Program-made: the position numbers and the translations under genes | Assembly (NCBI RefSeq): GCF_017052655.1 | Contig: NZ_JAFIDC010000001.1 | Span: 558,001-622,000 of the forward strand | DNA length: 64,000 bases | Source of the DNA: Acholeplasma equirhinis | Lineage (GTDB): Bacteria; Bacillota_I; Bacilli_A; Acholeplasmatales; Acholeplasmataceae | Direction of reading: 5' to 3' | The notes under the pieces: generated by a model | Databases searched by the model: none | What the model saw: the letters and a program-made list of their open reading frames with translations, nothing else | What the model was told of the DNA's origin: nothing | Part shown: one piece after another, positions 1,512-53,769 of the stretch | Layout: each line of letters opens with the position of its first letter | Numbering within the stretch: the stretch's first letter is position 1

Positions 1512-1514
1512 AAA

Positions 1515-2639
1515 CTACGTTTTTGTAAAAGTGAACGGTTCTGAGAATTCACCTGTTTTACCAACAAAGTCAACAGCCCTTACTGTAATTTCATAAGTTC
1601 CTGCAGATAGTGTGGTTAACATGATTTGATTTAGGTTAGTCTTTTTATAGAACTCACCATTCACATAAACCTCATAATATTCAACACCGTGATCATCTTC
1701 TGCTTTAGGCCACCAAATTGAATTAGCAAGTTGTGTAGTTTTAGCAATCGTACCAACCTTAGTTGGTTCAAAACCATCATAATATAAATAATCTTTTTGA
1801 TAAACTCTGACGTAATCTACTTGCATACTGGTAGGGAAAATAGAATCGACAACACCTTGTGACCCACCCCATGTACCACCAACTGCCACATTTAAAATCA
1901 AGAAGAAATATTGATCAAATGGAAAAGCTTTCCAATATTCAACATCTTGATTAGAAAGTGGGTTATATGCAAACACACCAAGACCAACAGGTTCTCCATC
2001 TACATAAATTCTGATTGAACCTGGTTCCCAAATCATCTCATATATATGAAATTCATCAGAAACATTTGGTACTGTTTTTGAATAACCAATGTTTGTACCT
2101 AAATTATGATTATATTTTGTGGTATGAGTATTGGTATGAATTCTATTATTTTCATAGCCAACATGTTCCATAATATCAATTTCACCAGAATGTGGCCAAC
2201 CACCATATTTACTTTCTGTTGGCATCATCCAAATTGCTGACCATGTACCACGTCCAGTAGGCATTTTAGCTCTCACTTGAACTCTTCCATATAACCAGTC
2301 ACCTTTATATTTAGTTGTTAGTCTACTTGATGTGTATTCTCTACCTTGAAATGATTCTTTTTTAGCAGTAATTGTTAATAAACCATCAGAAACTGTTGTA
2401 TTTTGAGGTTTATAGAATTGTAATTCCTGATTTCCCCAACCATTACCACCAAGTTCATAATTCCATTTGGTTTGATCAAGTTCATCACCATCAAATTCAT
2501 CGTTCCATACTGAAACCCAACCACCATCTAAATAAGGTACGACTGCACCAGGGTTTGGATCTTTCTTTTGGCCCTCTTCAGTACATGCAGTTAATACTAA
2601 GAGTAATGTAAATATAAATATTGCTGTTAATTTCTTCAT
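1515..2639 (-). CDS. Exported GH16 endo-beta-1,3-glucanase (laminarinase) lipoprotein
   Basis: The 374-residue product starts with a lipoprotein signal (lipobox LTAC, Cys19), so it should be anchored on the outer face of the membrane. The GH16 catalytic motif GEIDIMEHVG is complete at residues 152-161, with nucleophile Glu153, Asp155 and acid/base Glu158. The intact E-x-D-x-x-E form with Met is typical of laminarinases. Residues from about 295 to the end look like a fibronectin-III-type module. It is the last gene of the left glucan operon, 9 bases after a permease gene. It probably cuts laminarin-type glucan at the surface into oligosaccharides for import. Substrate preference between beta-1,3 and mixed-linkage glucan is inferred from the family and the neighbours. 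Confidence 0.9.
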   Translation of the reverse strand: MKKLTAIFIFTLLLVLTACTEEGQKKDPNPGAVVPYLDGGWVSVWNDEFDGDELDQTKWNYELGGNGWGNQELQFYKPQNTTVSDGLLTITAKKESFQGREYTSSRLTTKYKGDWLYGRVQVRAKMPTGRGTWSAIWMMPTESKYGGWPHSGEIDIMEHVGYENNRIHTNTHTTKYNHNLGTNIGYSKTVPNVSDEFHIYEMIWEPGSIRIYVDGEPVGLGVFAYNPLSNQDVEYWKAFPFDQYFFLILNVAVGGTWGGSQGVVDSIFPTSMQVDYVRVYQKDYLYYDGFEPTKVGTIAKTTQLANSIWWPKAEDDHGVEYYEVYVNGEFYKKTNLNQIMLTTLSAGTYEITVRAVDFVGKTGEFSEPFTFTKT

Positions 2640-2648
2640 GAATACCTC

Positions 2649-3602
2649 CTATTCACCTGTAATACCTGTTCTATCAATACTTTCAGTGAATTGTTTTTGT
2701 CCAATGAAGTAAATTACCAAGAGTGGCAAGATAGAAATTAGGTTCGCTGCTAAGACAACCGCTTCATTTAATTCCGCTCCAGGTGTACCTGGTGGAAATA
2801 GTGTACTATATGAATCTCTAAATTTAGTAATTAATAAAGGTAATGTTCTTGAATCACCTGTAAATAATGATGTTAAGAAAGTTTCATTCCAATACCATAC
2901 AAATGAGAATAATAGAACAATAACAATTGAAGGAATTGCTAAAGGTAATGCAATACTTCTAAAGATTCTAAATTGTCCTGCACCATCCACTTCTGCTGAT
3001 TCATATAATGCAGAAGGAATTGTTTTAAAGAATTGATAGAAAATTAATATATAAATTGCTTGATTCAAGCCTTGTCCAAAGAAACCAGGTAATAACATTG
3101 CCCATTCACTAGATAGTATACCTAATGAACGATAAATTCCGATTGTTGATACCATAGTAACTTGTGAAGGCAGAATGAATGTGGCTAACATAAATATAAA
3201 TAAGATTTTCTTTAATGGGAAATCAAATTTTGCAAATCCATAACCAATAATTGCAGATGTTGAAGTTACAATGACTGATGCTTTAAGTACATAACTTGAA
3301 GTTGAGAAGAAAGAATCTAAATAAACATTATTTGCAGGATCCCACATTTTTAAGACAATGAAAGCTTGTTCAAAGTTTTTGAATGTAATATTTCTTGGTA
3401 CCCATTTTACACCATCATTAATTAAATCCTCAACACTCATAAATGATGTCACTGTCATGAATAAAATTGGATATAAATATACATACGCAAATGAGATTAA
3501 TAAGGTATAGACAACAAGTTTATAAAAGAGTCCATCATAAAATCTCATTCCAAACATGATGCGCTTTAATTTTTTCTTGAATGATTGTGCTTTAGTTTTC
3601 AT
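2649..3602 (-). CDS. Sugar ABC transporter permease, MalG/LplC type (pair 2)
   Basis: The 317-residue protein has six or so membrane helices and the cytoplasmic EAA loop ESAEVDGAGQ...LPLAIPSI that contacts the ATPase in CUT1 importers. The N-terminus carries the usual MalG-type amphipathic and first membrane segments. Its start codon overlaps the stop of the preceding permease gene by one base (TAATG), so translation is probably coupled. It should form a heterodimer with the product of 3602-4723. This is the second permease pair of the operon, the other being 9157-10974. Confidence 0.88.
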   Translation of the reverse strand: MKTKAQSFKKKLKRIMFGMRFYDGLFYKLVVYTLLISFAYVYLYPILFMTVTSFMSVEDLINDGVKWVPRNITFKNFEQAFIVLKMWDPANNVYLDSFFSTSSYVLKASVIVTSTSAIIGYGFAKFDFPLKKILFIFMLATFILPSQVTMVSTIGIYRSLGILSSEWAMLLPGFFGQGLNQAIYILIFYQFFKTIPSALYESAEVDGAGQFRIFRSIALPLAIPSIVIVLLFSFVWYWNETFLTSLFTGDSRTLPLLITKFRDSYSTLFPPGTPGAELNEAVVLAANLISILPLLVIYFIGQKQFTESIDRTGITGE

Positions 3603-4723
3603 TAACGGCTCTCCTTTCTCTTAATTGAAAGCAGACCTACATAGAATCCCATGACAACTACCATCAATATAAAGTATATCCATGCCATTGATGCTGCATA
3701 ACCGTATCCATGCCAATTGACATCAAGTGAACTACCAAATATCATATGAATTTGGGTTAAGTTTAAGATACCACCCGGTTCAACAAAACTTGACATAGAG
3801 ACAACTACATAAACAACATTGATGCTAATAAATGGTTTGATCGAAGGTAATGTAATCTTCCAAAAGTTATCCCAAGGTGATGCACCATCAATACTTGATG
3901 CTTCATAAATACTCTTATCAATTTTTTGTAGTGCAGCAAGGAAGATTAGAATCGGAATACCAGCATACCACAAGACGAGTAATAAACTATTAAGGAGTGC
4001 CATAACAGGATCTGCAATCCATTCACCTAAATTATTTGCAATATATAAAATAACTGCATTGTTTTCTAAACTTGGCAGAGAAACTGCACCTTGTGTGGTT
4101 AATTCTGTAATAATTGGTCCTGTTGAAATGATGACAGGTAAGAAGAATATTGTTCGCCATAAACCTTTACCCTTAATTGGTTGGTTAATCAACATTGCAA
4201 TAATCATTGAGAAAATAATGACGAGTGGTACAGATAACATCATCTTACCAAGATAACCAACATACATTGGTAATAATCTTTGGTCTTGTAAGATATTAAA
4301 ATAGTTATTCATTCCATGGAATGATGAATTAATTCCAGTTGAGGTTGTAAAGTAACTTTCAGTAAAGCTTAAATAAAATGAATAAACAAGTGGATATAAC
4401 GTAAAGACTAAGAAACCAATTAACCATAGTGAAATAAATAAGAACCCATAAAAGATATCTCTACCTTTTCTGGTATTTTTGAATCTAATACCAAATAGTC
4501 TGATATGTAGGTTATCGATTTTTAGTAAGGCATTATGGGTTAGAAAATGACCGATTTTACCTAAAACTGGTGTCACATATTGATACCACTTATCACCAAT
4601 CCATCGCCATGCAATGACAAAATATCGTAGGAAATAATGATAAGTGTAGTGTTTAAAATCTTTCTTTAATTTACTAAAGAATGATTTGATACTGCTAAAG
4701 AAGGTGCGTATTTTTTTCATCAT
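3602..4723 (-). CDS. Sugar ABC transporter permease, MalF/LplB type, with long N-terminal extension (pair 2)
   Basis: The 373-residue product has a MalF-type core with an EAA loop (YEASSIDGAS...ITLPSIKP). About 85 basic, aromatic residues precede the first clear membrane helix (YGFLFISLWLIGFLVF). That is longer than in pair 1, and its role is unknown. The gene overlaps the end of the DUF5696-like gene by four bases and its own stop overlaps the next permease start, so the three are tightly coupled. It probably pairs with 2649-3602 in a channel for glucan oligosaccharides. Confidence 0.87.
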   Translation of the reverse strand: MMKKIRTFFSSIKSFFSKLKKDFKHYTYHYFLRYFVIAWRWIGDKWYQYVTPVLGKIGHFLTHNALLKIDNLHIRLFGIRFKNTRKGRDIFYGFLFISLWLIGFLVFTLYPLVYSFYLSFTESYFTTSTGINSSFHGMNNYFNILQDQRLLPMYVGYLGKMMLSVPLVIIFSMIIAMLINQPIKGKGLWRTIFFLPVIISTGPIITELTTQGAVSLPSLENNAVILYIANNLGEWIADPVMALLNSLLLVLWYAGIPILIFLAALQKIDKSIYEASSIDGASPWDNFWKITLPSIKPFISINVVYVVVSMSSFVEPGGILNLTQIHMIFGSSLDVNWHGYGYAASMAWIYFILMVVVMGFYVGLLSIKRKESR

Positions 4724-7107
4724 ACCACCTCATAATCTTGTGCATTGATTGTAATACCATCAACGCTATAATTTGTATTTGAGTAATTCACATAAATCTT
4801 TTTATTGTTTGAATAAGTAATTCTAACAATACCAAGTTCAAGCACATCTCTAGCAATAATCTTTTCACCTAAGACATGTTTTAATGCATCATTAACATAA
4901 TGATAAGTTTCAACAACTTCTTCTTTGTAGTTACTAAATGATGTTGTATAGAAATTTGATGCATCTGTAAATCTCATCTTATAAGTTTCTTCATATGTAA
5001 GTACAAAACTTGGATTCATACCAAAATCAATTAGATTTAAAATGCGATCTTTACCTAAAGCATTAAAGTTTAAGTAACTTGTGAAATAACTAATGTACCC
5101 CTTTAAAACTAACGGCAACATTGGTACTAAATCACTATAATAAGTAAATTGTGAATTACCAATTGTCATATTTAAATAGCTGCCAAGGGCTTTATATAAA
5201 TAGAAACTTGGTTGATACATTTGACTATTTGGATAAAGTGATGCAATATCTTGATAATAAGAAATTGAATCTGTTCTGTCGTAGTATTGTCCACTGTTAC
5301 TAAATCCAAATGGACTATATGTAATACCATCTAACGCTATACCATCTGTTAGATAATAATCAAATCCACTCTTATCTTCGTTTGCCATTCTTAAACTGCT
5401 CCAAGGGAAAAGATCATATCTTTGATAAACTAAATTATCTAAATCAGATATATCGTTACTCATACGAATACGTGTAATATTATATGCAACATCGCTAAAG
5501 TAATTGATTCTAGGACCTTTCGATGTTGCGAAACGATAATCTTGATGCATGTAATATCCATTACCATCACCTTTTAAGGTTTGACCTAATGATCTAAACT
5601 GATTGACGTTTTCAACTAAGATTTGTCGATATGGTGCACGATCAGTAAAACCATCTTCACTCCATCCATATAAGGTAACTTGTTGATTTAAAATCTCATT
5701 TTCTTTGAAATGATGATACATTTCTTTAATTTGATCAATCGATGACATAACGACTTTATTTGTTCCAATAAATGATGCTTCACGTTCGGTCATAATATAA
5801 GATGTTTGAAGCGGTATTTGATTTTGATTAATCTTTTCTCTTTCAGATAAGATACCTTCATCAACTAATGTTTCTTGGAAGTCTTTTGCCATACCTACGT
5901 AACTTGCATCTTCACCACTTAAGAAGCGATAAGAGATATCTAAATTACCATTTAAATAACCTGGTAAGATTGCTTCTGCACCACTACCATCTCTAGAGAT
6001 GACTGCATAATATATATTTCTAACTGAATATTGAATGTGCATACTGTTAAATTTAGTGTTTGCACCAGCAAATGTACCTTGAAGATTTGCATGTTCAGAA
6101 CCTTCTTTTACGAATGCATAAAAGGCATTTTCACCTTCTAAATGTGTAACTCCAAAAATTGGTAACGTTAAATTAGGAATATAGTTTTGATTGTATCCTG
6201 CATCATTGCCATAGAATCGAGCGTTAAATGTTGTATTGTGATTACGATCGAGTCGAACAAGTGCACCAATACCATCAGGTATCATGAAATAACCTGGTAC
6301 ATTTGTTTCTTTTGTCGCACCAAAGTTAGGGAATAAATGAATATTTAATAGTCTAAAACGATCATCATTTTCTTCAATTGAGTCTTTATTTAAGAATGTG
6401 TCAAACCCTTTATCTGTTAAAGAAATTTCAACATCAAATTCGAATTTATAAGGACGTAAATTAATATGTGCAATGAGTTTATTTGTTGAACTGTTCACTG
6501 TATAAGTGATTTTTGCATCATTATGTTTCGCATCTGTTGCGTTAGGATTGATTGCATAAATTAATAAATCATTAGGAATATTTTCGTTTTCTTGATAATA
6601 TCTAGCATCTGCAATTGATAGAATACTTTCTCTAATAATTGCAGATGATCGAATAGCGGTTGTTCTAACAAAATCTACCCAAATACCTGAATTACCATGA
6701 TTTCTATAGGTTCTGTTACCATCTGATCCAACATAGAATAAATTCATTGAACTCCATAAATAACCAGTGTCTTTGTTTCTTAACATAATACCAAATGATA
6801 AATCATTGAAATAAAGTTCAAATTGATCGTTTTCTAATACGAATTCATAATTTATTGTTTCTAAATCTTCTTTTGAAAAATCAGGTTTGAAATTATCCTC
6901 ATAGTTTTGAAGTCTAGCAGGATCGATATTGGTTGGTTGAGTGTATCTTGAACTTGATAATAAACTCTCAGTGATATATGGATAATTATCAACAACTGAA
7001 GGGACATCATTAAAGTGGGTAGGTCCGACATTTGCAAAAGCAACCGTGGTCGCGATTGTACCAATAATCATGAGTAAACCTGTGAATTTTTTAATTAAAC
7101 TAACCAC
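4720..7107 (-). CDS. Exported DUF5696-like protein of the glucan importer cassette
   Basis: The 795-residue protein has a hydrophobic N-terminal segment (residues 5-25) that should export it. A stretch FELYFNDLSFGIMLRNKDTG near residue 95, then a block with SYIMTER and VTLYGWSEDG near residues 440-500, match what I recall of DUF5696 proteins of Paenibacillus and Clostridia, which sit beside carbohydrate ABC transporters. The fold is probably all-beta followed by a barrel-like part, but I see no catalytic signature I can name. It overlaps both neighbours (Yip1 protein upstream, permease downstream), which points to a fixed role with the transporter. A glycan-binding or hydrolytic function is possible but unproven. 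Confidence 0.65.
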   Translation of the reverse strand: MVSLIKKFTGLLMIIGTIATTVAFANVGPTHFNDVPSVVDNYPYITESLLSSSRYTQPTNIDPARLQNYEDNFKPDFSKEDLETINYEFVLENDQFELYFNDLSFGIMLRNKDTGYLWSSMNLFYVGSDGNRTYRNHGNSGIWVDFVRTTAIRSSAIIRESILSIADARYYQENENIPNDLLIYAINPNATDAKHNDAKITYTVNSSTNKLIAHINLRPYKFEFDVEISLTDKGFDTFLNKDSIEENDDRFRLLNIHLFPNFGATKETNVPGYFMIPDGIGALVRLDRNHNTTFNARFYGNDAGYNQNYIPNLTLPIFGVTHLEGENAFYAFVKEGSEHANLQGTFAGANTKFNSMHIQYSVRNIYYAVISRDGSGAEAILPGYLNGNLDISYRFLSGEDASYVGMAKDFQETLVDEGILSEREKINQNQIPLQTSYIMTEREASFIGTNKVVMSSIDQIKEMYHHFKENEILNQQVTLYGWSEDGFTDRAPYRQILVENVNQFRSLGQTLKGDGNGYYMHQDYRFATSKGPRINYFSDVAYNITRIRMSNDISDLDNLVYQRYDLFPWSSLRMANEDKSGFDYYLTDGIALDGITYSPFGFSNSGQYYDRTDSISYYQDIASLYPNSQMYQPSFYLYKALGSYLNMTIGNSQFTYYSDLVPMLPLVLKGYISYFTSYLNFNALGKDRILNLIDFGMNPSFVLTYEETYKMRFTDASNFYTTSFSNYKEEVVETYHYVNDALKHVLGEKIIARDVLELGIVRITYSNNKKIYVNYSNTNYSVDGITINAQDYEVV

Positions 7108-9157
7108 GATTCGTCACCTCCCTAATCACATCATCAAATAAGCCAACAACTTCATTTAAAAGTAGGTAAACAATAGCTGAGAATACTAGAATCATTAAAG
7201 CTGTAAAGATTGAAATTAAAATGTTACCTAGTGTTGGTGTGACATCATAAAAATGAATTTCCTTAACCATTAACACAACATAAATACCTGTGATAACTAG
7301 TCCAATTAAGAATAAGAAATCATAGATGAACGCTTCATTGAGTGTTAAGTAATGAGATAAAACAGTCAGAATTGGTAAAGTAATGATCATTGGAATTAAG
7401 ATATATGCTGTACCTTGGAATACATCACTTAATTTACCTTCACCTTCTCTAATCGAACATACTAAGTAATTCGATACAATCCATAAACCTAAAGGTAAGA
7501 AAATAAAGATTGCTTGTTGAGAAAACTCAATTTCTGCTGGAATAAATGAATTGAATAAGAAACTTGTTTGATAAATCCAGAAGATATATGCTGCAAAGAA
7601 TAAAAGAATTAATGTAAGTGCTGTAAAGTTAGAACTCTTCTTTTCTCTTTTAATACCATAAAAACCATCTTCGGGATGTCTTAAGGTATAGAAACCGTAG
7701 GCAAGTTCTTGATAGTATTTAAATCGCATTAAGAATTGATGTGCTTTTTTGAATGGATACTTTAAGTATTGTCCAAATTTCAAGAAAATATTTAAGATTA
7801 GTAAGACAATTAATGAAAGTAAAACGGTAATAATGAGTGGGCCAGATGATAACAGTTGAACGTTTCTAACTTCCCAATATGCATCACTATAACCATTTCT
7901 ATCTCGTGCAATTTCGTATGCTACCATTGCATTTTCATAATCACCTTCTGCAAAGTAAGCATCCGCAATACCTTTGTTTGCCATATCGAATAAGGCATTC
8001 ATTTTAAGGACATTTTGCCATGGTGTGAGTGATTCAATGTATTTACCGTCTTGATAGAGTTCAATCGCCTCATGAACTAAATTTGCAAAGTCTGTTGGTA
8101 CAAAAATTTGTAAAGCTTTTGTTTCAGCATCAATGACATAGATATTATTCTTATCATCTACTGCAATACCGCGAGGTTGTTTAAATAAACCTTTTTGACC
8201 GTTTGTATCCGTACCTGAGAAGATAAATAATGTTTCACCATCTGGTGCGTATTCTGTAATAAATCCTTTTGCAGATACTGTATAAATTGTACCGATTGGT
8301 CCAACGAAGATATCTTCGATATCGCTAAACCCAAAGTTTGATTGAGAATAAACATAGTTTGCAATATTTAATTTTAAATAACCGGATTGTTCTTTAGTCG
8401 TTGTTAAAATGAGTCCATTTTGATCCACACCAACATTATAAACAGGCAGTGGAATCATTTTAAACCAATCTCTTCTTTGTTGTTCGTTAAAGAACAAACT
8501 ACGGACCATATTTTCAAACGTTTGTGGTATTTGATTACCACCAAAGAAACCAGTGAATGTACCGTTGTTTTCATATTTTGCAAGACCATTAATGTTACCT
8601 GCAAGTAAAATATAAACAACGTTACCTTGGTCTGAAATAATTTTAGTTGGTTCAAACACTTCATTTGCACCAAAATATGGTGTATTTGTAGGTCTTTCAT
8701 ATGTGACTGCAACTTCATATTGAAAATTATCTGGATTATATACAAACTTATAAGCTTTTTTAGCCTGTAAGTCAGCAACATAAATATTGCCATCTTTACC
8801 AATATGTACACCAGTTGGTCTAAGTAGGATACCTTCACCAATTTTTTCAACTAAATCATTATTTAAATTATATTTAACGATATACCCCTGATAACTTGAT
8901 CCAACGGATACATAATCCGCAATATAAATATTGTCATCTTTATCAATTGTTAAATCAGATGGATTATTTAATGTAATATCATCTAAGTTATATTGTATAG
9001 ATAAAGGTAAATAAGCATCTTGAGTAGGTACTAAAGAGCTTCTTGACGTACTCCATGTAAAAGTCGTATAAGGTAGTCCATTCGCACTTACCTCAGGTGT
9101 GACTAAGAATACTGTCAGTATTAAAATAAGAAAGAGTAAAATTCCAGATTTTTTCAT
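7100..9157 (-). CDS. Membrane protein with NHL-repeat, TPR and Yip1-like domains
   Basis: The 685-residue product has a signal peptide (1-26). An extracytoplasmic beta-propeller follows at about residues 40-350 with NHL repeats such as LTIDKDDNIYIADY, VHIGKDGNIYVADL and IAVDDKNNIYVID. Then come a TPR-like pair at about 370-430 and a six-helix membrane domain of Yip1 type to the C-terminus. The start codon abuts the stop of the upstream permease gene (shared base), and its end overlaps the next gene by eight bases. Such proteins occur with two permease pairs in some Firmicute sugar loci. A scaffold or ligand-docking role for the importer is inference from position. Confidence 0.75.
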   Translation of the reverse strand: MKKSGILLFLILILTVFLVTPEVSANGLPYTTFTWSTSRSSLVPTQDAYLPLSIQYNLDDITLNNPSDLTIDKDDNIYIADYVSVGSSYQGYIVKYNLNNDLVEKIGEGILLRPTGVHIGKDGNIYVADLQAKKAYKFVYNPDNFQYEVAVTYERPTNTPYFGANEVFEPTKIISDQGNVVYILLAGNINGLAKYENNGTFTGFFGGNQIPQTFENMVRSLFFNEQQRRDWFKMIPLPVYNVGVDQNGLILTTTKEQSGYLKLNIANYVYSQSNFGFSDIEDIFVGPIGTIYTVSAKGFITEYAPDGETLFIFSGTDTNGQKGLFKQPRGIAVDDKNNIYVIDAETKALQIFVPTDFANLVHEAIELYQDGKYIESLTPWQNVLKMNALFDMANKGIADAYFAEGDYENAMVAYEIARDRNGYSDAYWEVRNVQLLSSGPLIITVLLSLIVLLILNIFLKFGQYLKYPFKKAHQFLMRFKYYQELAYGFYTLRHPEDGFYGIKREKKSSNFTALTLILLFFAAYIFWIYQTSFLFNSFIPAEIEFSQQAIFIFLPLGLWIVSNYLVCSIREGEGKLSDVFQGTAYILIPMIITLPILTVLSHYLTLNEAFIYDFLFLIGLVITGIYVVLMVKEIHFYDVTPTLGNILISIFTALMILVFSAIVYLLLNEVVGLFDDVIREVTNRG

Positions 9158-21374: not shown

Positions 21375-21403
21375 ATCTTATCATGAAATGAATGCGTTTT
21401 CAA
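21375..21403 (-). promoter_or_regulatory. Promoter of the left glucan operon
   Basis: On the minus strand TTGAAA (21403-21398) and TAAGAT (21380-21375) are separated by 17 bases, a good sigma-A layout. The start would be near 21368, directly upstream of O2. Confidence 0.7.
21389..21402. promoter_or_regulatory. cre-like site over the -35 box
   Basis: TGAATGCGTTTTCA matches the cre consensus TGWAANCGNTNWCA with one mismatch. It covers the -35 box of the left operon promoter, where CcpA binding would repress. Confidence 0.55.
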
Positions 21404-21447: not shown

Positions 21448-22467
21448 TTATGCTTCTTTTGTAGACTCCCTTTTAATTAATTTTGTATCGATTAATGTAA
21501 CGTCTGGTACTTCTGTGTCAGGATTTTCTATCATAGATAGTAATGTTTTAGCTGCTGTTTCACCTAAGATTTTACGATCTTGCATCATGGTTGTTAAACT
21601 TGGTGTGACATATCTTGCAACTGGGATGTCATCAAATCCAATGACTTGAATTTGATTTGGTACATCAATTTTATGATCTTGAAATGCTTTTAATACACCT
21701 AATGAAATTTCATCTGATGAAACAAATAAAACTTCAGGTAAGTCTTCATTACCAAGTAAATTTAGAGTTGCTTGATAACCTGATGTAAATCCAAATCCTT
21801 GTGCATATACGATATGTTTCTCATTAATCGGTAAATTAAAGGCATTCATATATTTCTTATATGCATTGAAACGTTGTTCAAAGGCTTTTGATTGTTGTGG
21901 ACCAACAACCATACCAATTTTCTTTTTATTTAATTTTTGAACTGAGTATTCTAATATTGATTTAACTGCATGATCATTATCTGAAACAACAGCTTTTAAG
22001 CCCTTTAAAACCATATCAGTTGAAACAACAGGAATTTCAGAACCGATTAATTCTTCGATACCTTTATCATTGTAGTTGCCAACAACGATATATACGCCAT
22101 CAACTTTTTTATTCATACACCATTTTAAATATGAAAGTCGATTCTTGCCTAATTTAGTAACAATAAATGACAGTTCATAACCTTCATTTTCAACATATGT
22201 TTTAAAGTGTTGAAGAACACTTGAAAAGAATGGATGTTCTAATCCAATGTTTAATTCTTCACTAAAAATAACACCAATTGTTTTTGAAGACTTACTCTTA
22301 AGCATTCTTGCAGACATGGTTGGTACATAACCAACCTTTTCAATGTACTCAAGAATGCGTGTTCTTGTTGCTTCACTAACTTTTCCTGTATTATTCAAAA
22401 CTTTTGAAATCGTTCCTGGTGATACATCCAGTTCTTTTGCTAAAGTATAAATATTTTGTTTTTTCAT
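21448..22467 (-). CDS. LacI-family repressor of the glucan regulon
   Basis: The 339-residue protein has an N-terminal LacI helix-turn-helix and hinge (about 6-60: TLAKELDVSPGTISKVLNN, then VGYVPTMSARMLKS) followed by a periplasmic-binding-like ligand domain. It is the last gene of the right operon, 12 bases behind the cytoplasmic GH16 gene. Because an operator copy sits at that operon's promoter, the repressor would control its own synthesis. The likely inducer is a short beta-1,3-gluco-oligosaccharide such as laminaribiose, which is inference from the operon content. Confidence 0.92.
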   Translation of the reverse strand: MKKQNIYTLAKELDVSPGTISKVLNNTGKVSEATRTRILEYIEKVGYVPTMSARMLKSKSSKTIGVIFSEELNIGLEHPFFSSVLQHFKTYVENEGYELSFIVTKLGKNRLSYLKWCMNKKVDGVYIVVGNYNDKGIEELIGSEIPVVSTDMVLKGLKAVVSDNDHAVKSILEYSVQKLNKKKIGMVVGPQQSKAFEQRFNAYKKYMNAFNLPINEKHIVYAQGFGFTSGYQATLNLLGNEDLPEVLFVSSDEISLGVLKAFQDHKIDVPNQIQVIGFDDIPVARYVTPSLTTMMQDRKILGETAAKTLLSMIENPDTEVPDVTLIDTKLIKRESTKEA

Positions 22468-40573: not shown

Positions 40574-40605
40574 TTAAAACGGACAATTAAATAAAAAACC
40601 TAGAG
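40574..40605 (+). repeat. Left terminal inverted repeat of the IS3 element
   Basis: It starts TTAAAACGGACAAT and ends CCTAGAG. The orfB stop codon (40587-40589) lies inside it. The right copy is at 41859-41889. Confidence 0.85.
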
Positions 40606-41489
40606 AGAGCTTGTTTTCGATATTGAATCGGAGCGAGCTCTTTTATTTTCTTTTGTAATCTTTCTTCATTGTAATACTTAATATAATCCTCAACTTTTAA
40701 AATCATTTCAGATTCGCTCATTTTATCGTTCAAATACACACATTCACTCTTTAATGAACTAAACCAAGTTTCTATTGGACTATTATCCACACAGCTTCCT
40801 TTAAATGATGCACTCTGTTTAATGTTATTTTCTTTTAATAAATTTGAATACACTTGTGATGTGAATTGTGCCCCTTGATCAGAGTGAATAATTAATCCTA
40901 ATCTTTGATGCTGCGGGACATCACTAATCGCCATTTTTACTGTATTTAACACGAAATCATGGCTCATAAATCTAGATATTTTATAACTTACTATACTTTT
41001 GTCATACATATCTTTTATTGCACATAGATAGAGTATGCGCTCTTTACAGAAAAGATAACTAATATCTATACTCCATTTTTCATTTGGGCGTTCTGTGGTA
41101 AAATCTCTCTTGAGGAGATTAGGTATCTTGATGTGTGGTCTAGCGCCCCATCTAAACTTTTTCTTCCTAATGATTGACTGAACTTGATTCAGTCTCATAT
41201 AACGGTACACGGAATATCTTGTCAGGATGAGGCCGTGTACTTTTTTTATATTCATTTGGAGCCGCTCGATTCCTTGTCTTTTATCCTTAAAATATTGGTC
41301 TAATATAATTTTGTTTATTGCTTCATTGTAGGATTTATATTTTGGCTTACCTAGGGCGATCCAATCATAATAACCGCTTCGTGAACACTTTAACCTTTGG
41401 CATAAATTCTTGATTGAATACCTACACTTTAATTTATCAATTATTTGACACTTTTCTTTTGATTCCTTAAGTAAGCTATCTGTTTTTTT
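40587..41489 (-). CDS. IS3 transposase orfB (DDE integrase core)
   Basis: The frame is open from the slippery run at 41489 to the stop at 40587, about 300 residues, which is the normal orfB length. It begins KKTDSLLKESKEKCQIIDKL and has no good ATG of its own before 41255, as expected for a product made by -1 frameshifting from orfA. The catalytic triad is present: Asp in WSIDISYLF (about 142), Asp in IHSDQGAQF (about 204) and Glu in DNSPIETWF (about 240). The last two are separated by 35 residues, the DD35E spacing of IS3. The element therefore looks functional. Confidence 0.88.
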   Translation of the reverse strand, partial: KKTDSLLKESKEKCQIIDKLKCRYSIKNLCQRLKCSRSGYYDWIALGKPKYKSYNEAINKIILDQYFKDKRQGIERLQMNIKKVHGLILTRYSVYRYMRLNQVQSIIRKKKFRWGARPHIKIPNLLKRDFTTERPNEKWSIDISYLFCKERILYLCAIKDMYDKSIVSYKISRFMSHDFVLNTVKMAISDVPQHQRLGLIIHSDQGAQFTSQVYSNLLKENNIKQSASFKGSCVDNSPIETWFSSLKSECVYLNDKMSESEMILKVEDYIKYYNEERLQKKIKELAPIQYRKQALSRFFI

Positions 41490-41824
41490 ATATCTTCATA
41501 TACCTTTAACTCTTCAATTAATTGTTCTTTACTCATATCTTCATACTTGATTGGTTGTTTAGGTCTACCTTTGTTTGGTGTTGTTTCTTTGGTTGCTATA
41601 CCACGTCTATCTACTGTTGTTCCAAATGTTTGATATTGTTTAACCCATCTTCGAACCACAGATGAATCTACATCCAATTGTTTTGCTAAAGTAGTATAAC
41701 CACTTGATTTACCAGTTAGATAATTAATTACTATTTCATTTTTTTCTTCAATTGTATATTGTCTATGTTTGATTGTTTTTCTTTCTCTCATTTTCTTTCC
41801 TCCTTTAAAAACTATCTTAAACAA
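41441..41824 (-). CDS. IS3 transposase orfA (helix-turn-helix)
   Basis: The 127-residue product has a helix-turn-helix at about 25-65 (YTIEEKNEIVINYL, YTTLAKQLDVDSSVVRRWVKQY) and a C-terminal leucine-zipper-like segment (MSKEQLIEELKVYEDIKKQIAYL). It binds the inverted repeats and supplies the N-terminus of the OrfAB transposase. GGAGG precedes the start. A frameshift signal of seven A residues lies near its 3' end. Confidence 0.88.
   Translation of the reverse strand: MFKIVFKGGKKMRERKTIKHRQYTIEEKNEIVINYLTGKSSGYTTLAKQLDVDSSVVRRWVKQYQTFGTTVDRRGIATKETTPNKGRPKQPIKYEDMSKEQLIEELKVYEDIKKQIAYLRNQKKSVK
41483..41489 (-). promoter_or_regulatory. Programmed -1 frameshift site (A7)
   Basis: On the minus strand AAAAAAA followed by C is read ATA-AAA-AAA-CAG in orfA and AAA-AAA-ACA in orfB. 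This is the standard IS3-type slippery sequence joining orfA to orfB. Confidence 0.75.
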
Positions 41825-46868: not shown

Positions 46869-47651
46869 ATGAAAAATATTAAAAAAATTTGGATTGTTAT
46901 ATTGTTAACTTTATTACTTATGGGTTGTGTACCAAGTAATTCAGATAATGATTTGCCAGATGACAAAGATCCAGATGATGAACCACAAATTGAAGACCCA
47001 ATCGGATACCCATTCGATTGGCAAATTGAATTTGAGGTTAATACTGAAAATGAAACCATAAAAATAATTGCTCATTTTGATGATGATTTGGCACTTCATG
47101 AAACTATTGAGTTTGGAATATTATATTTATTTACAAACGAAGAAATTAACTTACATGAAAATTATGGACCAACAAACAAATATACAAAGTATACGTTTAG
47201 TTCGAACTTAACTTATACAATTCATGATATTGACTCAGTTAATTACAACATTAATCTTAAAGTAAGACTTTACTATGTAACTGACGGATATGCCTTCTAT
47301 TCAAATATTTCTACCTTTAACCTTTATGAACAAAAGAAAAATGATACAGATACATTCGCAATCAAAATCAAGGATTTCGTTGAAGGTAATATCACAATCA
47401 CCTCCATTGAGTTAATTATAAATTATACAAATTATACAATCACATCTAAACCTGAATATCTTAATATTCAAATTGCGTATGACTTCAAAGAAGTCACCCT
47501 TACAATTACACCAACAGAATCAAAATATCGCTTTAACGAAAACATTTCATTAATAATTAATAACAAAAACCAAAATATCAAGTTTAAAACAATTGAAAAT
47601 AATATTCTAACTATTAAGTTTAATGATCCAAATTGGTCTGGAATTTACTAA
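46869..47651 (+). CDS. Hypothetical lipoprotein with acidic linker
   Basis: The 260-residue product has a lipoprotein signal (lipobox LMGC, Cys19) and an acidic linker (DNDLPDDKDPDDEPQIED), followed by two beta-rich, Ig-like halves with many N, I and T residues. CGGGG is found 10 bases ahead of the ATG. I recognise no family. It stands just upstream of the peptide cassette but is cut off from it by a terminator. Confidence 0.72.
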   Translation: MKNIKKIWIVILLTLLLMGCVPSNSDNDLPDDKDPDDEPQIEDPIGYPFDWQIEFEVNTENETIKIIAHFDDDLALHETIEFGILYLFTNEEINLHENYGPTNKYTKYTFSSNLTYTIHDIDSVNYNINLKVRLYYVTDGYAFYSNISTFNLYEQKKNDTDTFAIKIKDFVEGNITITSIELIINYTNYTITSKPEYLNIQIAYDFKEVTLTITPTESKYRFNENISLIINNKNQNIKFKTIENNILTIKFNDPNWSGIY

Positions 47652-47674
47652 AACACCGACAAAAAAGGTGTTTT
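47650..47674 (+). terminator. Terminator of the 46869-47651 lipoprotein gene
   Basis: The stem AAAACACC/GGTGTTTT has a 9-base loop and is followed by TTTT-G-TTTTT on the plus strand. Confidence 0.85.
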
Positions 47675-47744
47675 TTTTGTTTTTAGATGAAAATATCTTT
47701 CTAAAAATGAAAATATTACAAATTCGAAACTTTTGATTTTTATA

Positions 47745-47758
47745 TGAAAGCGTTTTTA
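47745..47758. promoter_or_regulatory. cre-like site at the peptide cassette promoter
   Basis: TGAAAGCGTTTTTA matches the cre consensus except for one base. It lies directly upstream of TATACT (47761-47766), the likely -10 box, so CcpA bound here would block the promoter. The arm AAAGCGTT is repeated inverted at 47785-47792. Confidence 0.5.
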
Positions 47759-47825
47759 GATATACTAATCTTAAACAACAAGCTAACGCTTTGAATTCCA
47801 AAATAAAAAAAGAACGGGGGATCTT

Positions 47826-47942
47826 ATGGAAAATCTTATTAAGCGTTGTTACGAAACTCCTTCTATCGAAATTACTGAATTCGATGAGAAGGTACATGCC
47901 AATTCGACATCAGTACCGGTCGATTCATGGTTTGCGGATTAA
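47826..47942 (+). CDS. 38-residue peptide, candidate precursor of a processing system
   Basis: The small gene has an ATG seven bases or so behind a GGGGG ribosome-binding site and ends TAA at 47940-47942, 15 bases ahead of the next gene. The peptide reads MENLIKRCYETPSIEITEF then DEKVHANSTSVPVDSWFAD. The first half (YETPSIEITEF) is the leader pattern Y-x-x-P-x-(I/V)-E-I-x-x-F seen in small peptides encoded next to HprK-like or PqqD-like genes in Firmicutes and Bacteroidetes. The tail is polar and ends in WFAD. VHA before NSTS looks like a signal-peptidase-type cleavage site (Val at -3, Ala at -1). Codons such as TCG, CCG and GCG are rare in the surroundings. Confidence 0.7.
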   Translation: MENLIKRCYETPSIEITEFDEKVHANSTSVPVDSWFAD

Positions 47943-47957
47943 AGGGAGACTTAAAAC

Positions 47958-49967
47958 ATGAAAAAGGTATGGGGATTAATATTTCTACTAATGGCTGCAG
48001 TAACAGCCAGTTTATCACTTGCTTATGCAGCAGGTCCTGTAACATCAGTTGATGGTGCATCAATTCGTACAACTGGTGTTCAAGGTTTACGCTTCTATGC
48101 AAATGTAGAAGATTTAGAATCAGTTCACGGTTTCTATCTATTATATGGTGATGCTGATGTAGCTGATTTAGAAGCTGCTTTACCAGAAATGTTACATAAT
48201 GGTAAAACAGTTTTCAAAGCACCGGTTGAGGGTGCAGATCAAGATGGACAATTTAGTGTTGTCTTAACTGGTATTCCTGATAGAGGATATATGCAAAAAA
48301 TAACTGCAATTCCTTATGCAGTTGTTGATGATGAAGAAGTTTATGGTGAACCCGTCACTAGATCAGTTGCTGAAGTTGCTCAAAAAATGACTTTAGCAGG
48401 TGATGGTGATGCAGGTACACAAGCAATTCTTAACTATGTCCATAATAATTATCTTTCAATTGAATCATTATCATATGGTCAATATGTAGTTTCAGGCTTA
48501 TACACTGCTGATATTGATGTAATTCGTGCAGAATTAGTTAAAGATTGGAACACAAGATTTGGAACAAGTTGGGTTGATTTAGATGCATCTACTTTTGCAG
48601 CAAGCGCAAGAGTTGGTGGGCAAGGTTCACAAGGTTCAAGCACTACACTTGTAGGTACTAATCTACTCAAGTTTTTCCAAGATGAAACTTTTGGTCCAAA
48701 ATGGTGGTGGCTACTTGAATATATGAATGCATATGGTGGAGGAACAATTCATCCTCAAAGACAAGCTCAAGCTCTCATGAATGGTGGAGTGAATTCAACT
48801 CTTGCAACTGTCTTCTGGGGAGACCACTTTGTTTATGCAGTATATAATTTACTAAAAGTTGACAACAAAACTGGCTGGAGTGTTTCAACATTGACATTTA
48901 CTAAGGTTGATAATACAAGTATTGACAGATTGTATCAAATTGCAAATTACAACAATTCAATTATGAAAGATTTGTCAACTGTTGAATTATTACCAAAAGG
49001 TACACAAGTCACTTTACCTTCTTCAGCGGAATTATTTACAGGTTATACAAATTCTAATTTTACAATTTCAGGTTCAACTGTAACATTTGCAGCCAATTAT
49101 ACACTCAACAATATTGTAAGTTTACGTGTTAATAGAACTGCAATCAATTATTCAATTCAATATTTTGATGGTGATGATGCATTATCACTCTCTCCAACGT
49201 CTTATACAATCGCTTCATCTGAAATTACATTACCAATTCCTGTCAAAGATGGCTATTCATTTGAAGGTTGGTATGACAATCCGTCATTTGATGGTTCACC
49301 AATTACAAAAATTTCTACTGGATCAACAGGAAATAAAGTTTATCACGCAAAATTTGAAGCCACTGGTTTCTCACCAGTAACTATTACATATCAATTAAAT
49401 GGTGGATCATTGAATAATGCTGATACAATTTTCTTCAAATCAACTCATAATCATACAGTTACATTATTTGCAAATAGTGGTAATGGTAGTCAATTACATT
49501 TGGCTACAGCTAAAATTGGAATTTATTGGTATCATATAGCATTAAAACCAACTGCAATCGCCGGTGTATATGAAGTTACATCAAAAGGTACAGGATCTGA
49601 TTGGACAAAACCAGCAGATTCACCATATGTCCTAGCATTCCACGATAGTTTAGCAACAAATAAAGCTGCTATGCAAGCATTTTATAATAATGCAAGCGTA
49701 GGTAAACATGTCGTTATTAGTGGAACAATTCCAGCATCAACTTCAGCTAATGCAATCTCACTCGGAATTGGTTTAATTACAAATACATCCGTAATTTATC
49801 AAAATGTCACTTATAATTATCTAAACGATGAGCGACCATTCATTACACCAATAAAAGATGGTTCAACTTTTGGAGGTTGGTATACTACTCCAGATTTCTC
49901 TGGTTCAGCAGTAGAAACATTCATAGGTTTACCTTCAACTGTTACACTTTATGCTAAGTGGAACTAA
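47958..49967 (+). CDS. Secreted protein with a cassette-specific domain and InlB-type repeats
   Basis: The 669-residue protein has a signal peptide (1-25, ending AYAAG), no lipobox and no wall anchor. Residues about 33-370 form a domain shared with the C-terminus of the protein at 51135-53738 (SIRTTGVQGLRFYANV, FSVVLTGIPDRGY, TRSVAEVAQKM, LLKFFQDETFGPKWWWLLEYM). After that come Listeria-Bacteroides (InlB B-type) repeats, as in DGYSFEGWYDNPSFDGSPI and DGSTFGGWYTTPDFSGSAV, the last ending in TLYAKWN. GGGAG stands 9 bases ahead of the ATG. Binding or adhesion is likely but not shown. Confidence 0.82.
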   Translation: MKKVWGLIFLLMAAVTASLSLAYAAGPVTSVDGASIRTTGVQGLRFYANVEDLESVHGFYLLYGDADVADLEAALPEMLHNGKTVFKAPVEGADQDGQFSVVLTGIPDRGYMQKITAIPYAVVDDEEVYGEPVTRSVAEVAQKMTLAGDGDAGTQAILNYVHNNYLSIESLSYGQYVVSGLYTADIDVIRAELVKDWNTRFGTSWVDLDASTFAASARVGGQGSQGSSTTLVGTNLLKFFQDETFGPKWWWLLEYMNAYGGGTIHPQRQAQALMNGGVNSTLATVFWGDHFVYAVYNLLKVDNKTGWSVSTLTFTKVDNTSIDRLYQIANYNNSIMKDLSTVELLPKGTQVTLPSSAELFTGYTNSNFTISGSTVTFAANYTLNNIVSLRVNRTAINYSIQYFDGDDALSLSPTSYTIASSEITLPIPVKDGYSFEGWYDNPSFDGSPITKISTGSTGNKVYHAKFEATGFSPVTITYQLNGGSLNNADTIFFKSTHNHTVTLFANSGNGSQLHLATAKIGIYWYHIALKPTAIAGVYEVTSKGTGSDWTKPADSPYVLAFHDSLATNKAAMQAFYNNASVGKHVVISGTIPASTSANAISLGIGLITNTSVIYQNVTYNYLNDERPFITPIKDGSTFGGWYTTPDFSGSAVETFIGLPSTVTLYAKWN

Positions 49968-49980
49968 CTAATTAACAATA

Positions 49981-50011
49981 AAAGGCACTGTAGAAACCCT
50001 ATGGTGCCTTT
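49981..50011 (+). terminator. Weak terminator or attenuator inside the cassette
   Basis: The 8-bp stem AAAGGCAC/GTGCCTTT has a 15-base loop but only a short T-tract (TTTCTATT). It may reduce transcription into the kinase-fusion gene that starts at 50035. Confidence 0.55.
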
Positions 50012-50034
50012 CTATTAACTTATAAAGGATTTAT

Positions 50035-51138
50035 ATGCTATATAAAATTGCAGATTTAATTGTTAAAATGAATCCTCAATATGATCCATTAACGTTTCAA
50101 GCCACACAGTATTTGGTAAGTGGTGATTTTGATGTTGATATTGATATTCCAGATTTATCTGAACATGTTCAAAAATATCAACATGAAAATAATCACTTAA
50201 CACTAGGTGAAGCCGAGTATATGATTTATGGTTCCTACTTTTATACTAAGTTAATTAAATTTAATGGCTTTTTCCTACATTCTTCTGCAGTTGTATACCA
50301 AGATAAGGCATATTTGTTTTCAGCACCAAGTGGTACAGGTAAATCAACACACGCGGCTTTATGGGCTACAAATTTAAATGCTTATATTTTAAATGATGAT
50401 AAACCTGCAATCAGATTAATTAATGATAAGTTTATCGTATATGGCACACCATTCACAGGTAAAACAAATACTGGTGTAAACAAGAAAGTCGAACTTGGAA
50501 ATATAATTTTCTTAGAACGCAGCTTAGAAAATTATATACATCAAATTTCAAATGAACAATCTTTAAAATTTTTCTTACGAGAAACAATTCGTCCATTTAA
50601 AGAGGAAAACATGGAACTCGTCTTAAATCTTTATCAAAAACTAGCAACTAAACATCCATTTTACCTTCTTGGTTGTAACGTAAGTATTGATGCTTTATAT
50701 ACAGCTTTGCATGGACTTAATCTAATAAGCAGTATAGAAAAAACATTACTAACCAAAGGATTTGTTGTTACAAATGTTTATGGAAGAAGCATGTTACCTC
50801 TCTTAAGAGAAAATATTGATCAAGTCTTAATAAAAAAAACAGACACATATCATATATACGATGTTGTTTTATTTAAATCTAATGATAAACTAGTTTTACA
50901 TAGAATCATAAAAATAAAAGGTGATACATACTATATCACCGGTGACAATCAGTATAAATTAGAACATGTCTATAAAAACCAAATAAAAGGGAAAATGAAA
51001 GCTTTTTATAAAGAAGGTAAAGAAATCCCTGTTAACGATACAGAATATTTAAAATACGTCAAAAGAATCACACGTACAAGACTTCTTCGTGCAATCATCC
51101 GAAAACTATCAAAGAAGAAAGGAAATCATCAAATATGA
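50035..51138 (+). CDS. HprK-like kinase fused to an ER-type signal-peptidase-like domain
   Basis: The 367-residue protein has two parts. Residues about 75-235 resemble HPr kinase/PEP carboxykinase-like P-loop proteins: LHSSAVVYQDKAYLFSAPSG with Walker A APSGTGKST (97-105), LNDDKPAIR (119-127), YGTPFTGK. Residues about 240-345 match the S26/S24 peptidase core: YGRSMLPLL with Ser252, then LVLHRIIKIKGDTYYITGDNQ with His289 and Asp304, the Ser-His-Asp set of ER/SipW-type enzymes. No membrane helix is visible, so it is probably cytoplasmic or peripheral. Related kinases and peptidases are usually separate genes beside a small Y-x-x-P peptide gene. The stop overlaps the next ATG (ATGA). Confidence 0.8.
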   Translation: MLYKIADLIVKMNPQYDPLTFQATQYLVSGDFDVDIDIPDLSEHVQKYQHENNHLTLGEAEYMIYGSYFYTKLIKFNGFFLHSSAVVYQDKAYLFSAPSGTGKSTHAALWATNLNAYILNDDKPAIRLINDKFIVYGTPFTGKTNTGVNKKVELGNIIFLERSLENYIHQISNEQSLKFFLRETIRPFKEENMELVLNLYQKLATKHPFYLLGCNVSIDALYTALHGLNLISSIEKTLLTKGFVVTNVYGRSMLPLLRENIDQVLIKKTDTYHIYDVVLFKSNDKLVLHRIIKIKGDTYYITGDNQYKLEHVYKNQIKGKMKAFYKEGKEIPVNDTEYLKYVKRITRTRLLRAIIRKLSKKKGNHQI

Positions 51139-53738
51139 CAATCATCAAAAGATTCACAGCAATCATCTTCTTAATCATTTTAAGTTTCGTTGTTTCATTT
51201 AATGAGACCTATAGTGCTGATGACTTTATTACAACTACTTCAGTTAATGACTACGGTCAAGAGTTAAGAGCAGTGTGGATGTCACCTATTACAGGTGAGA
51301 TACCAAATAACGTCACTGAACAATCTTGGAAGAATTTATTCTTAAATGAAACCTTCCCAATGCTTGCGTACTATAACTACAATACAATCATTATTCATTT
51401 TAGAACACATAATAATGCTTATTATAATTCAACACTCAATCCAAAAGCAACTCAATTTGCTAATATAAACTTTAATGTATTTGACCCAATGGCTTGGTTA
51501 ATTGAGGAAGCACATAATCGTGGTATTGAAGTACACGCTTGGTTAAATCCTTATCGTGTAACACTAGGACAAGCATTTCCACAAGCTAACCCAGCTTCAA
51601 ATTCATCAAATCTTTTAACTTATAATAGTTCTACAATTTTAAATCCTGGTCTTCCAAATGTTAGAGAGTTTCTTTATGATACTGTGGAAGAGATTATTCA
51701 AAATTATGATGTTGATGCTATTCACTTTGATGATTACTTCTATACAAACTTAGGTGCAAATGGATCACTCTCAACAGCACCAACAATTATTTCCGAACCA
51801 GACCAATCAACTTTTGAAACATATGGTGTTGGTTATAATCATACAAATGCCGTTTCAAAAGCAAACTGGCGTCGTGAACAAGTAAATATTTTTGTCGAAG
51901 GTGTACATTACGTTATTAAATCTTACAATGAGACAAACGGTAAACATATTCAATTTGGTATTGCACCAACTGGTGTTTATAAAAATGGTAATGGTGTCGT
52001 TACATATGATGCAAATGGATTACCAGTAACAACTGGTTCACAAACTAATGGTCAAGAACACTATAACTCATATTTATTTGCAGATAGTCTGCATTGGTTA
52101 AAAAATGGATGGTTAGATTATTTTATGCCTCAATCTTATTGGGCAGACAATCATCCAGCTGCAAGTTATACAAAAGTTATGGGTTGGTGGGATAAAGTTT
52201 TTAAAAATTTAAATGTGAATCTTTATTCTGGACTTGGTCTTTATATGGCCGCATCTGCAAATGAAACTTATAATTGGAAAGCAAACGATACTGAACTTAA
52301 TCTTCAAATGAATATCTTACACGGACTTGAATATGTAGAAGGATTTTCAGTATACAATTATCCAAACTTAAAAATTGGATATCAAGAAAGAAATAATCCT
52401 TCAAATATTGTCGCAAGACATGTCAACAATGCGAAATCACACTGGTCTAAAATAGCAATCTTCCCTGAACTTAAGAGTATGGAACCAGTATTAGTAGATC
52501 CAATTACAAGTATGGAACATCAAGGTGGTACATTATCATTTAACTCAGTTGAAAATGCAAAATTCTACTACATTTATCGTTCTACTGAAGAAATAACTTA
52601 TGATGCATCAGAAATCATTGGTGTTGTAAGACATCAAGATTTACCAATATTAACCTATCAAACAAATGATTTAAATAATACTTACAATTATTCTATAAGA
52701 GTCTTATCACCAACAAATCATTTATCTGATGAACCTAATTTATCTGAAAATGCAATAATGATTCCTGGTGCTTCAATTAGAAATCAAGATGCAAACTTAC
52801 AACAAGGTCTAAGATTCTATGCTGAACTTGTTGATGGATTTATTCCTGAAGAAAAAGGATTCTACGTTGTTTATGGTGTTGCATCCAAAGCACAACTTCA
52901 AACAGCAATCAATAATCCAATTGGTGGTAAAACCATATTAAATGGTAAAGAAGTCTTTAAAGCGTCTGTAGAAGGACTAGATGAAGATAACAGATTCTCA
53001 GTTGTATTAACGGGTATACCTGAAATTGGATATGCAACTAAAATCTCAGTTTTCGCCTACTACATCCAAAATAGTAAAGAAACAATAACAATTACAGTAT
53101 CAACAAGATCAATTGCACAAGTTGCTATTAATATGGCTAAAACTAATGAATCAACTACTGCTTCTTTAGCAATCATTGAATCAGTTAAACAAAACTTTAA
53201 TGTGCTACATACAACTATTGATGGCATTGCTGTTACGGGTAGTATTTATGAAGTTGATCGATTAAAACTTAAATCTGAATTCTTAACGGATTACAATAAT
53301 AAATTTGGTAATGCATTAACAGCATCATCTACACCATTGCAATACAAAAATCAATTTTCAACTGGATTAACTGAAGCAGATAATATAACAAAGAATGTAT
53401 CAAATTCAAATTTATACAAATTCTTTAATGATCCAATATATCAAGCTAAATGGGGTTGGATATTAGATTATTTCATAAGTATTGATGGTACATTACATGT
53501 TGAAAGACAGTCAATGGCACTTAAAGGTGATGGAACTTATGCTGATTATCAATTATGGAATTTCATCCATTTCTCAGCAACACTATATAATTTCTTTAAT
53601 CGAGAACATGAAACACTAAACTATACTGCAATTAACTTCTCTCCAAGTTCAACATCTAACTTAAATTATCAAAAAGTTGCATTATTTAGTAATTCAATTT
53701 TAATTGATATCGATGATTATCAAGTAACTTTAAAATAA
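51135..53738 (+). CDS. Secreted GHL10 family protein with the shared cassette domain
   Basis: The 867-residue protein has a signal peptide (about 1-27). Residues about 40-440 are a glycosidase-like GHL10 (PF02638, YngK-like) barrel: QELRAVWMSPI, VHAWLNPYRV and AIHFDDYFY are all present. A fibronectin-like part (about 445-540) leads into the domain also found at the N-terminus of the 47958-49967 product (about 545-865: SIRNQDANLQQGLRFYAEL, FSVVLTGIPEIGY, STRSIAQVAINM). The ATG lies within the stop of the kinase-fusion gene, so translation is coupled. GHL10 proteins act on carbohydrates, possibly surface glycans, but the substrate is not known. Confidence 0.85.
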   Translation: MTIIKRFTAIIFLIILSFVVSFNETYSADDFITTTSVNDYGQELRAVWMSPITGEIPNNVTEQSWKNLFLNETFPMLAYYNYNTIIIHFRTHNNAYYNSTLNPKATQFANINFNVFDPMAWLIEEAHNRGIEVHAWLNPYRVTLGQAFPQANPASNSSNLLTYNSSTILNPGLPNVREFLYDTVEEIIQNYDVDAIHFDDYFYTNLGANGSLSTAPTIISEPDQSTFETYGVGYNHTNAVSKANWRREQVNIFVEGVHYVIKSYNETNGKHIQFGIAPTGVYKNGNGVVTYDANGLPVTTGSQTNGQEHYNSYLFADSLHWLKNGWLDYFMPQSYWADNHPAASYTKVMGWWDKVFKNLNVNLYSGLGLYMAASANETYNWKANDTELNLQMNILHGLEYVEGFSVYNYPNLKIGYQERNNPSNIVARHVNNAKSHWSKIAIFPELKSMEPVLVDPITSMEHQGGTLSFNSVENAKFYYIYRSTEEITYDASEIIGVVRHQDLPILTYQTNDLNNTYNYSIRVLSPTNHLSDEPNLSENAIMIPGASIRNQDANLQQGLRFYAELVDGFIPEEKGFYVVYGVASKAQLQTAINNPIGGKTILNGKEVFKASVEGLDEDNRFSVVLTGIPEIGYATKISVFAYYIQNSKETITITVSTRSIAQVAINMAKTNESTTASLAIIESVKQNFNVLHTTIDGIAVTGSIYEVDRLKLKSEFLTDYNNKFGNALTASSTPLQYKNQFSTGLTEADNITKNVSNSNLYKFFNDPIYQAKWGWILDYFISIDGTLHVERQSMALKGDGTYADYQLWNFIHFSATLYNFFNREHETLNYTAINFSPSSTSNLNYQKVALFSNSILIDIDDYQVTLK

Positions 53739-53742
53739 CGAA

Positions 53743-53769
53743 AAAACAGAGCATTTATAGCTCTGTTTT
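53743..53769 (+). terminator. Terminator of the peptide cassette
   Basis: The 10-bp stem AAAACAGAGC/GCTCTGTTTT has a 7-base loop and is followed by ATTTAT. It sits between convergent genes and may act in both directions. Confidence 0.85.

Follow-up and report, generated by a model that had tools for sequence, protein, structure and literature searches.

Linear polyphosphorylated RiPPs (LPPs; RiPP, ribosomally synthesised and post-translationally modified peptide) were described in May 2026 from the lpp cluster of Paenibacillus alginolyticus (Popov et al., PMC13381572). In this pathway the HprK-like kinase LppK phosphorylates YxxP precursors at core Ser3, adding one to several phosphates, and the SipW-like signal peptidase LppS (S29, H68, D93) cuts off the leader in vitro only with LppB, a RiPP recognition element (RRE), present; the leader removed is of the YxxP type and ends in T (PMC13381572). 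The enzyme set has therefore not been function-less since that date, and the statement of a first-pass annotation of the DNA studied here, that HprK-like proteins beside YxxP peptides and S24/S26 peptidases have no established function, is outdated in this respect. We analysed a window of 64,000 nucleotides from the wall-less, Acholeplasma-like bacterium Acholeplasma equirhinis (contig NZ_JAFIDC010000001.1, positions 558,001 to 622,000; coordinates refer to this window and its plus strand unless stated otherwise). A check of open reading frames (ORFs) found all four annotated plus-strand genes in place, namely a 38-residue YxxP peptide resembling a RiPP precursor (47826-47942), an exported protein (47958-49967), a fusion of an HprK-like kinase with a SipW/archaeal-type Ser-His signal peptidase (50035-51138) and a second exported protein (51135-53738), with the last gene coupled to the fusion gene by an ATGA overlap (51135/51138) as predicted. 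A conserved partner immediately upstream, a lipoprotein gene (46869-47651), had been left out and forms the fifth component of the module. On present evidence the locus is a real, conserved variant of a recently described RiPP type with new partners, and not a categorically new enzyme system.

The 38-residue peptide would be the precursor of an LPP-type pathway variant, in which the YxxPxIE leader would be bound in trans by the only PqqD-like RRE of the genome, Ser27 of the core would be phosphorylated by the fusion's kinase half, and the SipW-like Ser/His half would cut after V-H-A to release a linear phosphopeptide of about 13 residues. From the likeness to the LPP pathway we regard these maturation steps as probable. 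The matured peptide may then act at the surface together with the shared-domain protein, the GHL10/shared-domain protein and the WSGIY-tailed lipoprotein, although any specific surface role is speculative and held with far lower confidence than the maturation steps.

Fusion enzyme and precursor peptide

The kinase half of the fusion (approximately residues 1-230) carries an intact P-loop (SAPSGTGKST, residues 96-105) and an NDDKP motif (residues 120-124). In an AlphaFold2 model of the whole protein (pLDDT 94.6), residues 1-243 form the PEPCK/HprK fold, with Z 13.6 over 219 residues to PEPCK and with HprK/P chains heading the Foldseek list (E 4e-5), so that the HprK-like kinase of an LPP pathway is present. 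In a library scan of the fusion, none of the HprK models of Pfam or NCBIfam passed its cut-off (HprK_rel_A reached only E 0.027), and by curated models it is not an HPr kinase of the bifunctional HPr kinase/phosphorylase family. The peptidase half (approximately residues 231-367) shows the signal-peptidase fold with SipA, LexA and SpsB among the Foldseek matches; S252, H289 and D304 are invariant across 12 homologues and E310 nearly so, Peptidase_S24 scored above cut-off, and the archaeal-type model TIGR02228 gave E 1.5e-6, which is under its curated cut-off. The fused peptidase is thus a Ser-His enzyme of the SipW/archaeal type rather than a Ser-Lys enzyme, and corresponds to the Ser/His/Asp signal peptidase of LPP pathways. 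As no signal peptide was found on the fusion, both its domains are probably cytosolic. No RRE domain was seen in its sequence, and the structural alignment follows the kinase from residue 1.

The full peptide reads MENLIKRCYETPSIEITEFDEKVHANSTSVPVDSWFAD and its ORF is preceded by the Shine-Dalgarno sequence GGGGGA. Alignment of 11 family peptides revealed Y9, P12, I14 and E15 as invariant. The peptide contains a signal-peptidase-like site, VHA|NS; residues 1-25, ending in VHA, are the predicted leader and NSTSVPVDSWFAD is the predicted core, in which Ser27 lies at Tyr+18, as far from the Tyr as the phosphorylated Ser of LPP peptides, and is the predicted phosphorylation site. Apart from one deviating case, G155, peptides of the module lineage of this locus (class A) show V/I-x-A/T, then x-Ser at Tyr+18, and a Trp-containing core; peptides of a second group (class B) carry an SIAxS motif and those of Clostridia often D-[VI]-[IL]-T-x-S. 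As YxxP motifs are only mildly enriched in short ORFs near Clostridia HprK genes (39 found, 23 expected), Clostridia peptides were chosen by strand, position and the longer motif.

A survey of 160 genomes of the order detected the class A kinase lineage in six, and a YxxP peptide was found at the HprK locus in 5/5 genomes whose upstream flank is complete, counting this one. Peptide and fusion, whose separation elsewhere would have spoken against a joint system, are thus not unlinked for this module, and both this linkage and the likeness to LPP give good support to the proposal that the peptide is processed or phosphorylated by the fusion. The small ORF might instead be a regulatory upstream ORF that controls the next exported-protein gene, with the fusion acting on something else, and the observation that the ORFs of the peptides border on the following gene or overlap it, often by 7-41 nt, would fit translational coupling. 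However, even distant peptides keep Tyr, Pro, Ile and Glu without exception at the protein level, the motif is of a known RRE-binding type, the gene after the peptide is a kinase and not an exported protein in G155 and G158, and similar peptides lie beside the same enzymes in Clostridia, which makes such a regulatory role highly unlikely.

That kinase, RRE and peptidase act jointly is supported by gene adjacency and by fusions. Dozens of Clostridia loci carry HprK, RRE and S26 genes side by side; further HprK-S26 fusions were found in G001, within this kinase lineage, and, on a separate branch of the kinase tree, in an Erysipelotrichaceae genome (L101, 8842-10071), and an HprK-RRE fusion occurs in L048. 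A single ORF of L112 (7485-9179) matches the S26 peptidase profile as well as that of the nucleotidyltransferase, a further fusion within the enzyme set. In the same tree class B is set apart, and the class A kinases form a single clade within those of Clostridia, an arrangement suggesting horizontal acquisition of the module.

A second locus of this genome (L004, G000:C1:1105000-1122000; 7324-8825 and 4365-4487, minus strand) encodes HprK, a PqqD-like RRE and an S26 peptidase as separate genes, together with a YxxP peptide of the SIAxS type adjoining a large Flg_new exported protein. The RRE of this locus (C1:1112753), about 500 kb away from the module, is the only one in the genome, and the nucleotidyltransferase (PF14907) occurs only at C1:97059, about 510 kb from the module. 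All class A genomes encode an RRE at some position, and in G155 it lies inside the class A cluster, where peptide, HprK, RRE, S26 and GHL10/shared-domain genes are found within one cluster. From this we infer, as the simplest reading, that the RRE is shared in trans.

Exported partners of the peptides

A peptide profile search detected five YxxP peptides in this genome, each (5/5) directly upstream of an exported-protein gene and thus forming separate pairs; three of them have no kinase genes nearby (L223 6123-6242, L224 9012-9128, L225 ~6336-6431). Across the order, 19 of 22 YxxP peptides directly precede an exported-protein gene, compared to 62/233 (27%) for other genes of the same loci, exported proteins being called by a simple signal-peptide rule. 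In G157 a peptide ORF runs into the start of a shared-domain gene, again with no kinase nearby. As YxxP peptides also occur at such kinase-free sites, the enzymes probably serve several precursors.

The large domain said to be common to the two secreted proteins was recovered as about 320 aa with 33% identity, at 48036-48995 (residues 27-346) in the first exported protein, which also has a signal peptide and Flg_new (List_Bact) repeats, and at 52749-53708, C-terminal, in the second. Its AlphaFold2 model is weak (pLDDT 66, from an alignment of 4 sequences); over residues 1-118 it is similar to fibronectin III, immunoglobulin or CBM56 sandwiches (Z 7-8), a likeness that may reflect only a common arrangement. 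The domain occurs in 7/160 genomes, the six with the class A kinase lineage and G005, and is absent from the close relatives G002, G003, G006 and G007; in a sample of 391 Clostridia genomes it was detected in G160 and, weakly, in one more genome. The Oscillospiraceae genome G160 combines tail proteins, shared domain, YxxP peptide, kinase and nucleotidyltransferase, and in G177, a member of the same family, a shared-domain protein, kinase, RRE, nucleotidyltransferase and two tail proteins lie at one locus. All these counts derive from few independent origins. Co-inheritance of the shared domain with the module and the genome-wide pairing of peptides with exported proteins add weight to the original suggestion that the secreted pair may be effectors or receptors.

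The second exported protein carries a glycosidase/lytic-transglycosylase-like domain of the Pfam family GHL10 (residues 40-379; 1.2e-39, 136.8 bits with a cut-off of 27.9), which aligns with Cwp19 (5oq2) over 340 residues (E 4e-54). The GHL10 domain of Cwp19 from Clostridioides difficile is a peptidoglycan lytic transglycosylase (PMC6016235). A search for the transpeptidase family PF00905 was negative in five module-bearing genomes and positive in 10/14 control genomes, consistent with a wall-less host; judged from this one family search, the substrate of the GHL10 domain is therefore probably not the host's own wall.

The lipoprotein (lipobox LLLMGC) ends with NDPNWSGIY. The tail DPNWSGIY terminates the lipoprotein in five genomes and is shared with G001, G004 and G155, with a variant PNWTKPY in G158, and the remainder of the protein is much less conserved (27-42% identity). 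Searching the DNA of the 160 genomes for W[ST]GIY followed by a stop resulted in exactly five C-termini of long frames, all at module loci. Among the 391 Clostridia genomes real tail proteins were detected only in G160; the other DNA matches were discarded, as they are not C-termini of reading frames >60 codons. Tail and shared domain offer a pair of markers for the link between peptides and exported proteins, and no description of either was found in the literature searched. The co-occurrence of both, including in G005, suggests, speculatively, a contact between tail and shared domain.

This confinement of W[ST]GIY ends to loci with the shared domain may also be explained if the fused enzymes acted mainly on the exported proteins or the WSGIY lipoprotein, in sorting or processing, and the peptide were a small accessory with a similar core. 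In line with this, G005 keeps a class A-type peptidase, a tailed lipoprotein and a GHL10/shared-domain protein in spite of having neither class A kinase nor class A peptide, and in G160 the core DNDIADPWG is identical in a surface-layer-type protein ending GWTGIY, other shared-domain proteins there ending DNDASWPWN. On the other hand, the fusion is probably cytosolic and the exported proteins are equipped with ordinary signal peptides or a lipobox, the homologous enzymes that have been studied use the YxxP peptide as substrate, and the similarity of core and tail is not general (1/26), so that we consider a main role in sorting or processing unlikely.

That the core equals the C-terminal tail of co-encoded exported proteins was tried as a general rule and rejected, since the own locus gave the best match in only 1/26 cases. 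A core/tail match is clear in L119 and in L075/G160 and suggestive in L055, and for the window's own peptide no similar match was found. In L119 the C-terminus GGWETETENPEGWE of a 1604-aa protein (893-5707) matches the end GGWETDVSLPEGWM of the YxxP peptide just downstream (5963-6118). In G160 (L075 6715-6840 and 8036-8923, L209, L204) the core is repeated exactly in the surface protein mentioned above, which is of the SLH type, and four other shared-domain proteins end DNDASWPWN or DNDYSDPWN. A surface-assembly system of a wall-less bacterium may be imagined, in which YxxP phosphopeptides, all matured in trans by a single common set of enzymes, would each be paired with an exported protein, W[ST]GIY at the C-terminus of anchored proteins would be a docking signal for the shared domain, and the core would be a free or competing tail. 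If true, a RiPP pathway would here form the basis of a new kind of ligand/receptor or sorting module, but we regard the proposal as rather doubtful.

Several observations weigh against an LPP-type maturation of the peptide as proposed here. The locus itself has no RRE, which LPP pathways have in the cluster, and no NTP transferase; no ABC/MsbA-like exporter or other export route for the peptide was identified among the genes of the unit and its immediate neighbours, to which the search was confined, the whole genome not having been searched. Compared to the LPP consensus YxxPxVLxHQxIxFETxxS, YETPSIEITEFDEKVHANS matches in YxxP and in the Ser spacing, but not in VL, HQ or FET, so the leader lacks the HQ and FET residues. 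In a gapless count the G155 peptide has Asn at Tyr+18 and Ser only three residues later. The content of G005, whose only YxxP peptide lies at its class B locus, implies that the exported partners can persist without class A kinase and peptide. The nominal p of 8e-9 for the pairing of peptides with exported-protein genes is optimistic, because the 22 peptides are related and not independent samples, and translation of the peptide is predicted solely from its conservation.

Hairpins and a cre-like element

The first-pass annotation had placed the unit between two terminators. The downstream one (53743-53769) is strong (z -6.9), and its hairpin, being symmetrical, was also called on the other strand; the upstream hairpin with T run, 3' of the lipoprotein gene (47650-47674), is weaker (-9 kcal/mol, z -1.2), albeit with an 8-T run. 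The four genes do follow in order as one unit was said to contain them, but a strong internal hairpin (~49980-50011; -18.4 kcal/mol, z -4.0), a probable attenuator missed earlier, splits it between the first exported-protein gene and the enzyme gene. Its structure, but not its sequence, is retained in G001 and G004, two relatives keeping the gene order of peptide and first exported protein. As the structure is kept despite sequence change, it is probable that more of the peptide and the first exported protein is made than of the enzyme, which the hairpin would allow.

A promoter-like site was found by motif match (TTTATA 47739-47744, TATACT 47761-47766) with the cre-like operator ATGAAAGCGTTTTTAG at 47744-47759, which had been taken as a feature of the promoter. 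Within the window cre-like motifs are at chance level (106 observed, 117 expected), and the site was dropped as a regulatory landmark on the window alone. In G001 and G004 a comparable ATGRAARCGYTTTTA element precedes the peptide gene, and the site is retained only as a comparative hint. A perfect match to the cre consensus is located elsewhere in the window (21388-21403, minus strand); it lies in a sugar-use region, directly upstream of the gene (21448-22467, minus strand) for a LacI-type regulator. Approximately 5 kb upstream of the module, a transposase-like ORF pair, IS3 type by appearance, was observed (40587-41824).

Comparison with known systems

Paeninodin-type lasso peptides have in common with the module an RRE-bound leader and an HprK-like kinase that modifies a core Ser. 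As lasso clusters, including those of the paeninodin type, can also contain a YxxP-type leader, an RRE and an HprK-like kinase, the locus could belong to a lasso-peptide or other macrocyclic RiPP cluster. However, neither a lasso cyclase (macrolactam synthetase) nor a B2 cysteine peptidase of the transglutaminase type was seen among the ORFs at this or the second locus, a genome-wide search not having been done, and the SipW-like peptidase occupies the B2 place; a macrocyclic product is thus extremely improbable.

Sortase/LPXTG and PEP-CTERM/exosortase are C-terminal sorting-signal systems on surface proteins, which likewise combine a short conserved C-terminal motif with a processing enzyme encoded adjacent to it. 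In contrast to these, W[ST]GIY stands at the extreme C-terminus, followed by neither a membrane helix nor a basic tail, and no transpeptidase-type enzyme is encoded in the locus. With Cwp19 the second exported protein has the GHL10 domain in common, but it lacks the CWB2 cell-wall-binding repeats and carries the shared domain instead.

The closest likeness is to the LPP pathway, in the YxxP leader, the HprK-like kinase, the SipW-type peptidase, the distance between Tyr and Ser, the small residue ending the leader, and the presence of RRE and nucleotidyltransferase in the genome, though at other loci. Nevertheless, with RRE, nucleotidyltransferase and exporter outside the locus and with another leader motif (YExPxIE[IV], followed by a core of approximately 13 residues), this is not a canonical LPP cluster. 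Kinase and peptidase are fused here, dedicated exported partners are present that are absent from the known pathway, and the host is a wall-less Acholeplasma-like bacterium and not a member of the Bacilli, by which the newly described phosphopeptide chemistry is extended to such bacteria. The kinase-protease fusion should ease testing how phosphorylation and cleavage are coupled, and the pairing of peptides with exported proteins gives a direct handle on the role of LPP peptides. Therefore, compared to the LPP pathway, the enzyme set is already known and its arrangement is new.

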